Source: Hephaestia mangrovi (lineage in GTDB: Bacteria > Pseudomonadota > Alphaproteobacteria > Sphingomonadales > Sphingomonadaceae). From it: a stretch of 64,000 nt of DNA. The DNA lies in contig NZ_JAINVU010000003.1 of the NCBI RefSeq assembly GCF_019880555.1, forward strand, positions 302,001 to 366,000, read 5' to 3'. Shown in pieces: positions 12,236-56,232 of this stretch. The translations under genes and the position numbers were made by a program. The notes under the pieces are model-generated. The model did not search any database, was not told where the DNA came from, and was given only the letters and a program-made list of their open reading frames with translations. Position 1 is the first letter of the stretch; every line of letters starts with the position of its first letter.

Positions 12236-14368
12236 TCATTCCAGTTCGAGGATGACCTCGTCGACCGCCAGGCTGTCGCCGGGGTGGGCGTTGACCTTGG
12301 CGATGGTGCCGGCCTTTTCGGCGCGCAGGATATTCTCCATCTTCATCGCTTCGACCACCGCGAGCGGCTGGCCGGGCTCGACCGCATCGCCCTCCCCAAC
12401 GTCGAGCCGGACGAGCAGGCCCGGCATCGGGCACAGCAGGAATTTCGAGAGATCGGGCGGGACTTTCTCGATCATGTGGGTGGCATAAACGCCGACGCGG
12501 GCCGGGAGCACCCGCGCGACGTGGCTGGCGCCGCGCGTGGTGAGCCGCCAGCCCGAACGGACCGGCGCGATCCGCACGGTGAGCGTCGAGATGACCTCGC
12601 GTTCACCGTCTGCATCCTCTTGCTCATCGAGCAGATCGGCGTCGATCATGCGATCGCCGGGGGTGTATTCCATCGCCAGCGGCAGCTCTTCGCCGTCGAC
12701 GACGATGCCGTCGGTCGAGACCGAGACATGGTGATCCGTGCCGTCGATCGTCACCATCCAGTCGCCCGGCGGCGGCAATGTGCGGCCGAGCTGGCCATCG
12801 ATCCGGCGCGCGCGATCGGCCTGCGCGGTGGCGGCGAAGGCGGCGATCGCGGCGAGCTGACGGAGCAACTCGGGCGAGGCCGGCGCGCCGTGGAAACCGT
12901 CGGGATATTCCTCGGCAATGAAGCCGGTGGTGAGGTCGCCCGAGCGGAAGCGGGGGTGTTGCATCAGCGCCGACAGGAAGTCGATATTGTGCCCCGGCCC
13001 CTCGATCTCGAACGCGTCGAGGGCTGCGACCTGCGCATCGGCGGCCGCCTCGCGGGTCGGCGCCCAGGTGACCAGCTTGGCGATCATCGGATCGTAGAAC
13101 ATGCTGACCTCGCCGCCCTCGGCAACACCGTCGTCGACGCGGATGATCGGCTCATGCTCGTCGCTGCCGCCCTCCCCGCCGTTCGTGCTGAGCGAAGTCG
13201 AAGCACGCGACGACCCATCCGCGTGCCCTTCGACTTCGCTCAGGGCGAACGGCTGTTGGCGCCTGTCGGCAGCCGGCGGATTATACCGCACCAGCCGCCC
13301 GATGCTGGGCAGGAAGCCGCGATACGGGTCCTCGGCATAAACGCGCGTCTCGATCGCCCAGCCGTTGATGGTGAGGTCATCCTGCGTGAAGGCAAGTTTC
13401 TCGCCCGCCGCCACCCGGATCATCTGCTCGACGAGATCGAGCCCGGTGATCTCCTCGGTCACCGGATGCTCGACCTGCAGCCGGGTGTTCATCTCGAGGA
13501 AGTAGAAGCTCTCGCCGGTGGTGTCGGCGCCCGAGACGATCAGCTCGACCGTGCCCGCGCTGTAATAGCCAACCGCCTTGGCCAGCGCGACCGCCTGCTC
13601 GCCCATCGCCTTGCGCATCTTGGGCGTGACGAACGGCGACGGCGCTTCCTCGACCACCTTCTGGTGGCGGCGCTGGATCGAGCATTCGCGCTCGTGCAAG
13701 TAAACGACATTGCCGTGCTGGTCGCCGAGGACCTGGATTTCGATGTGGCGCGGGCTCTCGATGAACTTCTCGATGAACACGCGGTCGTCGCCGAAGCTGG
13801 CGAGTCCCTCGCGCTTGGTCGCCTCGAACCCCTCGCGCACGTCCTGCTCGGACCAGGCGAGCCGCATCCCCTTGCCGCCGCCGCCCGCGCTCGCCTTCAT
13901 CATCACCGGGAAGCCGATGTCCTTGGCGATCCTGACCGCTTCGTCGGTATCGGCGATCTCGCCGAGATAGCCGGGCACCACATTGACGCCCGCTTCCTTG
14001 GCAAGCTTCTTCGATTCGATCTTGTCGCCCATTGCGGCGATGGCCTTCGGGGGTGGCCCGATGAAGGCGATGCCGGCGTCGGCGCACGCCTTGGCGAAGC
14101 TCTCGCGCTCGGACAGGAAGCCGTAGCCGGGATGGATCGCGTCGGCGCCGGTTTCCTTCGCAGCGGCAAGGATCAGATCGGCCTTGAGATAGCTTTCGGC
14201 GGCCGGCGGAGGGCCGAGCCGGACGCTCTCGTCGGCCATCAGCACATGCGGCGCGCGCGCGTCGGCGTCGGAATAGACCGCGACGGTCGCGATCCCCATC
14301 CGCTTAGCGGTGCGCATCACACGGCAGGCAATTTCGCCGCGATTAGCGACCAGGATTTTCTTAAACAC
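12236..14368 (-). CDS. pccA: Propionyl-CoA carboxylase alpha subunit (biotin carboxylase + biotin carrier), with in-frame repeat
   Basis: A 710-residue protein: biotin carboxylase domains at the N terminus (FKKILVANRGEIACRV, then GGGGKGMR), and a C-terminal carrier domain with EAMKMEN whose Lys676 is the biotinylation site. With PccB it carboxylates propionyl-CoA to methylmalonyl-CoA. It is about 40 residues longer than typical homologues because a palindromic repeat supplies residues about 372-397 (see 13178-13253). Translation starts at GTG 14368 with AAGGAG ten bases upstream, inside the end of orf74 (8-base overlap). An acetyl- or 3-methylcrotonyl-CoA carboxylase is possible by sequence alone; context favours propionyl-CoA. 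Confidence 0.9.
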   Translation of the reverse strand: MFKKILVANRGEIACRVMRTAKRMGIATVAVYSDADARAPHVLMADESVRLGPPPAAESYLKADLILAAAKETGADAIHPGYGFLSERESFAKACADAGIAFIGPPPKAIAAMGDKIESKKLAKEAGVNVVPGYLGEIADTDEAVRIAKDIGFPVMMKASAGGGGKGMRLAWSEQDVREGFEATKREGLASFGDDRVFIEKFIESPRHIEIQVLGDQHGNVVYLHERECSIQRRHQKVVEEAPSPFVTPKMRKAMGEQAVALAKAVGYYSAGTVELIVSGADTTGESFYFLEMNTRLQVEHPVTEEITGLDLVEQMIRVAAGEKLAFTQDDLTINGWAIETRVYAEDPYRGFLPSIGRLVRYNPPAADRRQQPFALSEVEGHADGSSRASTSLSTNGGEGGSDEHEPIIRVDDGVAEGGEVSMFYDPMIAKLVTWAPTREAAADAQVAALDAFEIEGPGHNIDFLSALMQHPRFRSGDLTTGFIAEEYPDGFHGAPASPELLRQLAAIAAFAATAQADRARRIDGQLGRTLPPPGDWMVTIDGTDHHVSVSTDGIVVDGEELPLAMEYTPGDRMIDADLLDEQEDADGEREVISTLTVRIAPVRSGWRLTTRGASHVARVLPARVGVYATHMIEKVPPDLSKFLLCPMPGLLVRLDVGEGDAVEPGQPLAVVEAMKMENILRAEKAGTIAKVNAHPGDSLAVDEVILELE
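13178..13253. repeat. Palindromic repeat inserted in frame in pccA
   Basis: Two near-identical inverted arms (13178-13209 and 13220-13253) with a core CTGAGCGAAGTCGAAG flank a 10-base loop. The arms differ by two mismatches and a 2-base gap. On the coding strand it reads as PFALSEVEGH and STSLSTNG, with no stop and no frame change. Peptides of this type are familiar in sphingomonad proteins. It sits between YNPPAA and IIRVDDGV in a loop of the biotin carboxylase part. Confidence 0.85.
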
Positions 14369-18937: not shown

Positions 18938-19357
18938 TCAATGCCCGCCCTTCGGCGTTTCCATCAATTCGGTGAGCACGCCGCCCATGTCCTTCGGGTG
19001 GACGAACAGCACCAACGTCCCGTGCGCGCCGATGCGCGGTTCGCCGAGCACCTTCGCGCCCTTCGCCTCCAGCTCGGCCTTGGCGGCGTGGATGTCGGGC
19101 ACCTCGAAACAGACATGATGCTGCCCGCCGGCAGGGTTCTTCTCGAGGAACTTCGCGATCGGCGAGTCGTCGCCCAGCGGCTCGAGCAATTCGATCTGGC
19201 TGTTGGGCGCATCGACGAAGCACACGCGCACCTTCTGCGCCGGCAGATCGAACGCCTCGCCGACCTTCTCCGCACCGAGCAACGCGCGATACCGCGCCAC
19301 CGCGTCTGGGATAGACGGCGTGGCGATGCCGAGGTGGTTGAGGGGGCCGAGTTTCAT
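18938..19357 (-). CDS. mce: Methylmalonyl-CoA epimerase
   Basis: A 139-residue vicinal-oxygen-chelate fold protein. LNHLGIATPSI (metal ligand His8), GGQHHVCFEVPD (His near 80-81) and LTELMETP with Glu130 are the metal-binding and catalytic positions of methylmalonyl-CoA epimerases. The enzyme interconverts the (S) product of propionyl-CoA carboxylase and the (R) substrate of the mutase encoded downstream. The ATG at 19357 follows GAGGA at good spacing. An in-frame extension further upstream would be translated repeat DNA and is rejected. Confidence 0.93.
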   Translation of the reverse strand: MKLGPLNHLGIATPSIPDAVARYRALLGAEKVGEAFDLPAQKVRVCFVDAPNSQIELLEPLGDDSPIAKFLEKNPAGGQHHVCFEVPDIHAAKAELEAKGAKVLGEPRIGAHGTLVLFVHPKDMGGVLTELMETPKGGH

Positions 19358-19368
19358 TTGTCCTCTTT

Positions 19369-19398
19369 CGTCATTGCGAGCGGAGCGAAGCAATCCAG
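19369..19398. repeat. Half-copy of the palindromic repeat on the 3' side of the GIY-YIG gene
   Basis: A 30-base single arm (starts CGTCATTGCGAGCGGAGCG, ends GCAATCCAG) that matches the arms of the full element at 19709-19785. It lies between the GIY-YIG stop and the ribosome-binding site of mce. Confidence 0.8.
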
Positions 19399-19408
19399 AT
19401 GCGGAGCC

Positions 19409-19714
19409 TCAGTCATGTGCAATCCGTTCGTATAGATCGTCCCATCGCGGGTTGAACGCCTCGATGAGTGCGACTTTCCTCGCCCGAGAGCCGGCCTTGA
19501 TCTGCTTCTCGCGCACGATCGCCGATTCCATCGTCTGCGCCATTTCGTACCACACGAGCAGCTTGCAGTCGTACCGCCTGGTGAACCCTTCGACCGCGCC
19601 GGTGCGATGCTGCCATGCCCGTTGCGGAAGGTTGGATGTCACGCCGGTATAGATCGTGCCGTTCCGCTTGTTGGCCATGATGTAGACCGCAGGCTGCCGC
19701 TCGCGTTTCGTCAT
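19409..19714 (-). CDS. Small GIY-YIG nuclease-domain protein embedded between repeat copies
   Basis: A 101-residue protein made almost entirely of one GIY-YIG domain: VYIMANKRNGTIYTGVTSN has the two Tyr positions (VYI and YTG), LPQRAWQHR a basic residue, REKQIK the metal-binding Glu, and NPRW the usual end. Stand-alone proteins of this kind (UPF0213/YhbQ-like) are common in sphingomonads and have no settled function. The start ATG at 19714 lies inside the flanking repeat, with no clear ribosome-binding site. It splits the otherwise tight pccB-mce junction, which suggests late insertion together with the repeat. Confidence 0.82.
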   Translation of the reverse strand: MTKRERQPAVYIMANKRNGTIYTGVTSNLPQRAWQHRTGAVEGFTRRYDCKLLVWYEMAQTMESAIVREKQIKAGSRARKVALIEAFNPRWDDLYERIAHD

Positions 19715-19785
19715 TGCGAGGAGCCGGAGGCGACGAAGCAATCCATCAGGACGCTCTGGATTGCTTCGCTCCGCTCGCAATGACG
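19709..19785. repeat. Full palindromic repeat upstream of the GIY-YIG gene
   Basis: Two inverted arms (19709-19746 and 19757-19785) share CGTCATTGCGAG at the outer ends and GAAGCAATCCA at the inner ends. The left arm overlaps the start codon of the GIY-YIG gene by six bases; the right arm ends five bases from the pccB stop. The same sequence recurs as a single arm at 19369-19398, so the nuclease gene is bracketed. Confidence 0.85.
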
Positions 19786-19789
19786 AAGA

Positions 19790-21316
<1,527 letters not shown>

Positions 21317-55840: not shown

Positions 55841-56232
55841 TAGTCCGCTTTCATTAAATCAACATTGTGAGTTTCGATCTTCTCAATCTTGGTCCCACTG
55901 AAAACCAAGGTTAAGCCGACCGGGGTCTCCGCAGGAACACCCTTGCATTTCCACCCAATTATAATTTCGTCAGGAACCTCAACATACGCTCCCGGTTTTT
56001 GCGGAGTATCGTTGACCAGGTGACTGGTATATCTATACCTGCATTTTGCGAACGACGCGAAGAACTGCTTATCCTTTTCTCGCAATGGCGTTACGAAATC
56101 AGAATCTTCATAGTCTCGCTTGTCCTGAACCGCAGCCACGAACCGCTTGGCCACCGCATCCTGCTCGCTCTTATTAGCGCCGGCCTGTGCGGCCAAAAGA
56201 ACTGCGATTGTAGTGGCCATGGCCCACATCAC
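55840..56232 (-). CDS. Exported protein of unknown function inserted between nuoD and nuoE
   Basis: A 130-residue protein with a short signal peptide ([21 protein letters not shown]) and a mature part containing two Cys (AKCRYRY and GWKCKG) and a [18 protein letters not shown] ending. I recognise no family. The base composition differs from its surroundings: two 60-base blocks counted here (55861-55980) are 43% and 52% GC against mid-60s for the nuo genes, and codons such as AAA, AAT and ATT are common. It is coupled at both ends (ATGA with nuoD, TAGTG with nuoE), so it is translated with the operon. Confidence 0.75.

Follow-up and report, generated by a model that had tools for sequence, protein, structure and literature searches.

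The window analysed here is a 64,000-nucleotide stretch of a Hephaestia mangrovi contig (NZ_JAINVU010000003.1, positions 302,001 to 366,000), in which a small stand-alone GIY-YIG gene lies between genes for a pccB-like carboxylase and a methylmalonyl-CoA epimerase (mce), the minus-strand order being pccB, GIY-YIG gene, mce (Table 1). Together with its flanking repeats the gene forms a unit terminated by perfect inverted repeats of 31 bp, CGTCATTGCGAG...AATCCAGA, with CGTC outermost at both ends. The original prediction, made from the letters of the window, had described a palindrome-bracketed GIY-YIG gene that splits the pccB-mce junction and draws its ATG from the repeat, and this description is borne out, as is the predicted stand-alone protein of 101 residues (ATG at 19714-19712, 101 codons and a stop). 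The full palindrome on the 5' side and the half copy on the 3' side lie where they had been placed but are of a different nature: with two inverted monomers upstream of the gene and one downstream, they are a dimer and a monomer of a repetitive extragenic palindrome (REP). The 5' flank as a whole (19709-19785) folds with -44.2 kcal/mol (RNA parameters).

Table 1. Features of the repeat-bracketed unit and its two neighbouring genes (positions in the window)
Feature	Positions	Strand	Remarks
Whole unit, REP dimer - GIY-YIG gene - REP	19369..19785	-	417 bp
pccB-like carboxylase gene	19790..21316	-	upstream neighbour; name from the original prediction
Outer REP monomer, 5' side of gene	19755..19785	-	CGTCATTGCGAGCGGAGCGAAGCAATCCAGA
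Inner REP monomer of 5' dimer	19709..19747	+	inverted relative to outer monomer; tagged end contains the ATG of the gene
Stand-alone GIY-YIG nuclease gene	19409..19714	-	101 aa
Single REP monomer, 3' side of gene	19369..19399	+	CGTC facing away from gene
mce (methylmalonyl-CoA epimerase) gene	18938..19357	-	downstream neighbour; name from the original prediction

The tagged end of the inner monomer that holds the start codon reads GCAATGACG, and this ATG is the only one of the nuclease frame ahead of the conserved domain; an in-frame TTG at 19780, likewise within the repeat, would give a protein of 123 aa. The 26 loci with nucleases of the same clade (A clade, see below) do not in general draw their start codon from the repeat: a repeat-end ATG is used by only some of them, the window locus included, for example by L257, L267 and L269, which read ...AATCCATG. 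By eye, TAG-TCTT and AAAGAGGACAA-ATG are left outside the unit, so that the pccB-mce spacer without the unit would measure 15 bp, with AGAGG before the mce start. No target-site duplication was visible by eye at the window locus.

The protein matches the Pfam GIY-YIG family (PF01541) with 54.4 bits at a cut-off of 22.6. Residues Y11, Y22, R32, E69 and N88, which we take to be the catalytic residues of GIY-YIG enzymes, are invariant in an alignment of 46 sequences, and the AlphaFold2 model reaches a pLDDT of 94.3. By Pfam match, residues and modelled fold, the protein is a member of the GIY-YIG superfamily and a predicted nuclease. The best Foldseek matches in the PDB are 1zg2 (BH0048, UPF0213), Slx1 and the N-domain of UvrC, with E-values of only 1.3e-3 and weaker; a PDB sequence search gave weak matches only, to UvrC and BH0048, and no NCBIfam model matched any of four proteins searched. 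The structural neighbours include Slx1-Slx4, according to the entry title a branched-DNA nuclease, and as Slx1 acts on branched DNA, a hairpin or cruciform would be a plausible substrate for the window nuclease. In six close pairs of nucleases, four of them from one Bradyrhizobium-like set, dN/dS ranges from 0.04 to 0.18, which supports purifying selection on the gene.

When folded, the monomer leaves CGTC unpaired outside the stem, and the monomers end in AATCCAG, an unpaired tail fitting CCA. In its tag, palindromic stem and CCA tail the repeat fits the CGTC-tagged REPs as they are described in the text of Di Nocera et al. 2013 (PMC3733652), where the consensus families CGTC-1 to CGTC-4 are given, the class is reported from phyla including Proteobacteria and Chlorobi, and neisserial dRS3 and rickettsial RPE-4 and RPE-6 are counted among its members. 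According to the same text, these repeats apparently lack a dedicated transposase; they are reported not to be associated with transposase genes, and a possible mobilisation by other transposases is left open (PMC3733652). In the meningococcus, dRS3, whose pattern is given as ATTCCC(N8)GGGAAT, amounts to roughly 700 copies (PMC3898611).

A count of the exact core CGTCATTGCGAG across the host genome (3.79 Mb) gave 13 copies, and a reversed control gave 0. Three of these cores belong to the window locus; the rest are dispersed, several of them as dimers, and REP dimers of this repeat stand at at least three places in the genome. The original prediction had also suggested that repeats in neighbouring genes may owe their spread to such a nuclease, which does not hold for this repeat, as within the window the exact core GTCATTGCGAG is found at this locus only and a fourth match, at 56079, carries a mismatch. 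The four core matches obtained with one mismatch tolerated are within chance for the window, so that it is the arrangement that is unusual and not the local count. A second stand-alone GIY-YIG gene of the host genome (L006/L082) is bracketed by a different CGTC repeat, CGTCATGCTGAACTTGTTTCAGCATCCATGG (class B, see below), with 111 cores in the genome (at most one mismatch) vs 0 in the control; a third GIY-YIG match is UvrC-like, and these two are the only stand-alone genes that were found.

Elsewhere in the window, the pccA-like carboxylase gene (~13166-13258, minus strand) contains an in-frame palindromic insert, GTTCGCCCTGAGCGAAGTCGAAGGGC...GTGCTTCGACTTCGCTCAGCACGAACGG, translated as QQPFALSEVEGHADGSSRASTSLSTNGGEGG; RPEs occur inside rickettsial genes, and the insert resembles such repeats. 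Another repeat may be inserted in the methylmalonyl-CoA mutase frame, which has a proline- and glycine-rich stretch at ~16590 and further downstream (minus strand).

For a statistical comparison, 60 GIY loci were drawn from 119 genomes of the host's taxonomic family, each with flanks of about 8 kb, two of the loci being shortened by contig ends. Among the matches listed, they represent the even rows 24-150 of the score-ordered list plus rows 99 and 107, less the even rows 26, 38, 90, 106, 112 and 122, most of which lie near contig ends; row 112 is the window's own locus, which is therefore absent from the set, and the second GIY-YIG gene of the host genome is part of it. Sorting by a sequence motif gave, among the matches listed, 46 loci of the window type and 14 YhbQ-like loci. 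When the two flanks of each gene were simply compared for their best inverted match, inverted repeats bracketed 38 of the 46 window-type genes vs 5 of 1534 control window pairs, 4 of 514 other genes and none of 69 small genes; neither these bracketing tests nor the one on named loci described below uses any pattern. The excess over random genes that the original prediction had proposed to look for is thus present. Eight window-type genes fell under the cut-off, and 4 of the 14 YhbQ-like genes were bracketed as well.

CGTC-tagged palindromes, defined without naming any repeat family, were found within about 260 bp of 35 of the 46 window-type genes vs 93 of 1983 windows at distances above 2 kb. 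Named repeat families were present at 14 of 30 loci in the half not used for word counts vs 11 of 1278, a split that is no strict hold-out since the translated leaders of all 60 loci had been read before the patterns were written. In an intergenic control, repeats occurred in 49 of 77 intergenic regions beside the nuclease genes vs 25 of 275 other intergenic regions.

A first look at the 30 best-scoring loci of the family search had appeared to refute the association, TCATTGCGAG or TCATGCTGAA being found within 1.5 kb at none of the 30 and the half-core GCAATCCA alone at four. This was overturned, as most of these loci (21 of the 27 sorted) represent the YhbQ-like subfamily, which has another repeat. 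Within the same bacterial family, YhbQ-like genes (L014-L043, L046-L102) pair with TCGACA(A/G)GCTCAG, found by 7 of 14 loci vs 2 of 615 windows and by 10 of 21 loci vs 0 of 105; it was seen beside none of 46 and none of 6 genes of the window subfamily. Eleven YhbQ-like frames (L015, L016, L018, L019, L021, L023, L024, L026, L027, L030, L042) continue stop-free into an RNA methyltransferase-like domain, presumably TrmJ-like, with a stretch that reads ..VRPQLGENIGKAARAMLNFG.., which suggests a fusion with a repeat-derived linker.

A genome scan with the alignment of the 46 proteins yielded 586 related loci, the best 80 of which were listed with their organism names; with L156 left out, 79 entered the bracketing test. 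Inverted repeats bracketed 47 of these 79 (best 80 of 586) vs 5 of 853 controls, and a stricter cut left 35 vs 0 controls; the other 32 of the 79 were under the cut-off. Among these 32 and the eight window-type genes below the cut-off in the first test, several have short matching ends. The 47 bracketed loci include alpha-, beta-, gamma- and deltaproteobacteria, Legionellaceae, a Bdellovibrionales MAG and a Neisseria MAG. Contamination or a wrong name may affect some of the named records; 'Frankia' RB7 clusters with Bradyrhizobium in the tree. The repeat on either side of a Neisseria gonorrhoeae copy (L276), CGTCATTCCCGCGCAGGCGGGAATC, conforms to the dRS3 pattern as given in PMC3898611. In Sinorhizobium meliloti (L274) the gene lies between hflX and mazG, and the bracketing palindromes start with CCTCATCCCTGTG and not with CGTC, perhaps a Rhizobiaceae variant without the outer tag; no bracketing repeat was seen in the flanks of the Rhizobium K1/93 copy. 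In a sample of phyla, 250 of 397 genomes had a profile match, many of them weak matches that may be UvrC or YhbQ-like. Phages or plasmids as the main vehicle were rejected on 0 matches in 50,697 phage records and 34 matches in 72,556 records of a plasmid collection, all of the latter below 60% identity and several in chromosome-sized records.

The flanking repeats were assigned to four classes by their core, A (CATTGCGAG), B ((A/G)CTTG loop), D (GCGNANGC loop) and C (TCGACA(A/G)GCTCAG). With these patterns, which were drawn up after inspection of the flanks, an identical single class was found on both flanks at 103 of 171 loci (D 50, A 36, B 14, C 3), while 46 had a class on one side only, 5 a mixed label and 17 no class; two different single classes at one locus did not occur (0 of 171). 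Three pairs among the 171 loci are one gene fetched twice. After removal of identical proteins, 168 entered a tree, 146 of them with a single label; since the tree was built by FastTree on 100 columns, only strong branches count. On this tree the repeat class changes 9 times vs 63.9 times with shuffled labels (0 of 200 shufflings as low). A single group of 46 with a support of 97 takes in all 44 A-labelled proteins, its other two members having no single label; classes B and D are less clean, with 7 and 8 changes. The A group contains sphingomonads, Bradyrhizobium, Methylobacterium, Legionella, Bdellovibrionales, Thiobacillus and Pelodictyon, a genus of the Chlorobi, and this mixture of hosts indicates that the repeat class goes with the nuclease rather than with the host. 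At the level of sequence, the tree shows that each nuclease clade keeps its matching repeat class, as in an old and specific partnership.

The partnership extends to copy numbers. An A-clade nuclease, delimited by a cut at E 1e-35 that was set afterwards at a visible gap, is present in 26 of 298 genomes of the host's taxonomic family. These carriers hold a median of 39.5 A cores (minimum 2) and the 272 genomes without the nuclease a median of 0 (Mann-Whitney p ~1e-14; p = 2e-12 with three copies subtracted per carrier). Four carriers have fewer than 10 cores (2, 5, 7 and 9), and 37 of the 272 genomes without the nuclease have at least 10, from which it follows that the nuclease is not needed for persistence of the repeats. 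An outward-pointing A repeat stands on the 3' side at all 26 A-clade loci and A repeats on the 5' side at 24, vs none at the four next-best matches (55-64% identity); one of these (G635, 64% identity), just under the cut, has a flank without A repeat in a genome with 25 cores. In another genome, G103, with 120 A-type cores, nothing matched the window nuclease at 1e-20; there is only a short GIY frame (84 aa), perhaps the remnant of a lost partner.

As to mobility, the genes in the 1.5-kb flanks sort the 26 A-clade loci into 13 neighbourhoods, and nine loci from seven genera share the pccB-mce site of the window. Among nuclease pairs of at least 82% identity (same-gene pairs excluded), 13 of 16 share flanking DNA, which argues for a mostly vertical inheritance of the gene itself; in the remaining three (L158/L175, L177/L212, L183/L210) homology is limited to gene and repeats. 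Judged from these flanks, the nuclease gene is not a hopping element and would only rarely move itself. The minimal mobile unit of the original prediction, likened to RAYT transposases among REPs, is therefore upheld in its association (bracketing, class match and copy number) but not in its hopping.

A look for empty sites at the pccB-mce junction of relatives had likewise been proposed. In a genus sample (L104-L133, three loci without pccB left out), the nuclease was present at 2 of the 27 junctions with pccB in view, the window and L106, whose nuclease is 70% identical to that of the window and whose A repeats are present too. The 25 junctions without nuclease, with 46 to 1433 bp between the genes, mark the site as a variable slot; two of them (L109 and L126) measure 99 bp and hold a D-type CGTC repeat dimer and no gene. 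In Azospirillum lipoferum 4B the unit lies between sufB and sufC, and in 11 other Azospirillum records about 85% of the region is matched in two pieces, the unit being absent (six records read). Sphingobium plasmids with both flanks carry the unit in 7 of 11 records (four nearly identical) and lack it in 4. Among the three records with and four without the unit that were read, two empty sites hold a lone 29-bp CGTC...GACG palindrome, which looks like two unit ends fused, either remnant or founder; the other two empty sites are without it. In both genera the intergenic DNA at these sites is too diverged to decide on a duplication, and at the Azospirillum empty sites also too diverged for the ends to be fixed. 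Across 21 related-locus pairs and four 49.5-kb Sphingobium plasmid stretches, presence and absence of REPs were seen with ambiguous ends, and no clean REP insertion boundary was found.

We interpret the window locus as a REP-associated GIY-YIG nuclease unit, in which the predicted nuclease would recognise its own CGTC class and let it multiply and persist, and we put the probability of this reading at about two in three. Association and pairing are observed; cutting and mobilisation by the enzyme we infer. The pairing makes the nuclease a strong candidate for the enzyme that spreads CGTC repeats, and the simplest function would be that it acts on its matching repeat and thereby causes it to spread, a role assumed for RAYTs with the GTAG-tagged REPs, whose partner enzymes they are. 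In such a scheme a REP/REP dimer would first extrude as a hairpin or cruciform, for instance on the lagging-strand template, and the nuclease would cut at or near the unpaired CGTC tag. The cut could free the REP dimer or prime its copying, rarely that of the whole REP-gene-REP unit, and the piece would be joined in where intergenic DNA is broken, with no set target sequence; no common target and no target duplication were seen. The gene would stay long at one site under purifying selection while its REPs spread, and its later loss would leave orphan REPs; site conservation, low dN/dS and patchy distribution support this last step.

A different role is conceivable, in which the nuclease is a caretaker that trims or resolves REP cruciforms, which would otherwise stall replication or recombine, while REPs accumulate at its gene because they regulate or insulate it and some other enzyme spreads them. 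The mostly vertical inheritance at fixed sites and the purifying selection are as for a host gene, the structural neighbour Slx1-Slx4 acts on branched DNA, and the 37 genomes that retain at least 10 A cores without an A-clade nuclease are in keeping with spread by another enzyme. However, this explanation does not predict that the gene is bracketed by its own inverted REP in as many as 13 neighbourhoods for 26 loci, nor the presence or absence of whole units, and occurrence in only 26 of 298 family genomes is unlike a caretaker. We therefore consider it unlikely.

GIY-YIG enzymes also include homing endonucleases, and the gene might be a selfish nuclease of this type that cuts a target and is copied in by recombination, the REPs being travelling ends only. 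The splitting of the sufB-sufC operon in a single Azospirillum lineage would suit such an element, but 13 neighbourhoods, as defined by flanking genes, speak against one target, and the tens to hundreds of class-matched REPs elsewhere would go unexplained, which makes homing quite improbable. Nor do we give much credence to the gene being mere cargo of a classical transposase or RAYT that acts in trans on CGTC ends. The text of PMC3733652 leaves room for other transposases, and the host genome has a single weak Y1_Tnp match (C11:97711, 25.9 bits); against this, no other gene lies between the unit ends, that text reports no link of CGTC repeats with transposase genes, stating them to be unassociated (PMC3733652), and mere cargo would not be expected to pair with its repeats clade by clade. 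A RAYT identity of the protein itself was ruled out, as it is a GIY-YIG protein, the Y1_Tnp match lies on another contig and the REPs are CGTC-tagged. Finally, that REPs collect in any large intergenic region, where small GIY genes happen to lie, agrees with their extragenic location and with the chance-level count of one-mismatch cores in the window, but is practically dismissed by the intergenic control, by the absence of bracketing at other small genes and by the class match between flanks and with nuclease clade, which chance clustering would not produce.

Extending the preferred reading, in which the nuclease acts on its own repeat class, small GIY-YIG nucleases may be the missing dedicated enzymes of CGTC-tagged REPs including dRS3 and possibly the RPEs, co-diversified with them across several phyla and cutting at the CGTC tag, the YhbQ-like proteins being a parallel branch; we regard this broader view as slightly better than an even bet. 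Short palindromic repeats are a common feature of bacterial genomes, and the CGTC class includes dRS3 and RPEs; the clade-specific pairing of a 100-residue nuclease with CGTC repeats makes the question of a dedicated enzyme directly testable. If the interpretation is correct, a class of mobile palindromes would be driven by a GIY-YIG enzyme through a mechanism unlike that of any known transposase, a new enzyme chemistry would be added among DNA movers, and a role would be found for the many genes whose sole annotation is 'GIY-YIG nuclease family protein'. We know of no transposition chemistry for a GIY-YIG enzyme of the window type. A search of the open-access literature, judged mostly by listing and with bioRxiv and most subscription papers outside its scope, gave no paper linking GIY-YIG genes with REPs: in PMC9465073, the single paper with both 'GIY-YIG' and 'repetitive extragenic palindrom', the two occur separately, in a table and the reference list, and the text of a 2025 REP survey (PMC12306157) contains no words starting with 'nuclease', 'transposase' or 'RAYT'.

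The system described here resembles several known ones in part. With the CGTC-tagged REPs, as described in the text of PMC3733652, the window repeat shares CGTC tag, palindromic stem, CCA-fitting tail and occurrence as dimers; while those repeats apparently have no dedicated transposase, we propose a dedicated nuclease. Like an insertion sequence, the unit has terminal inverted repeats (31 bp, perfect), but by eye the target-site duplication is absent at the window locus. Short non-autonomous repeats that share their ends with a gene-bearing unit recall MITEs mobilised by insertion sequences, except that here no known transposase gene lies between the ends and no target duplication is seen. 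UPF0213-type stand-alone proteins (PDB 1zg2, 1ywl), which we take to be of the YhbQ type, have the same small GIY-YIG fold, the best Foldseek match being 1zg2; in the tree, the YhbQ-like subfamily is separate from that of the window, and it is the latter that pairs with CGTC REPs. The RAYT/REPtron, like the window unit, has one enzyme gene flanked by REPs whose class is scattered through the genome, and has REP dimers; for RAYTs, too, the type of enzyme corresponds to that of the repeat, and the gene, mostly present as one copy, is passed on mainly by vertical descent. The two differ in that the RAYT is an HUH tyrosine transposase (Y1_Tnp) acting with GTAG-tagged repeats, whereas the window unit combines a GIY-YIG nuclease of unrelated fold with a CGTC tag and a CCA tail.
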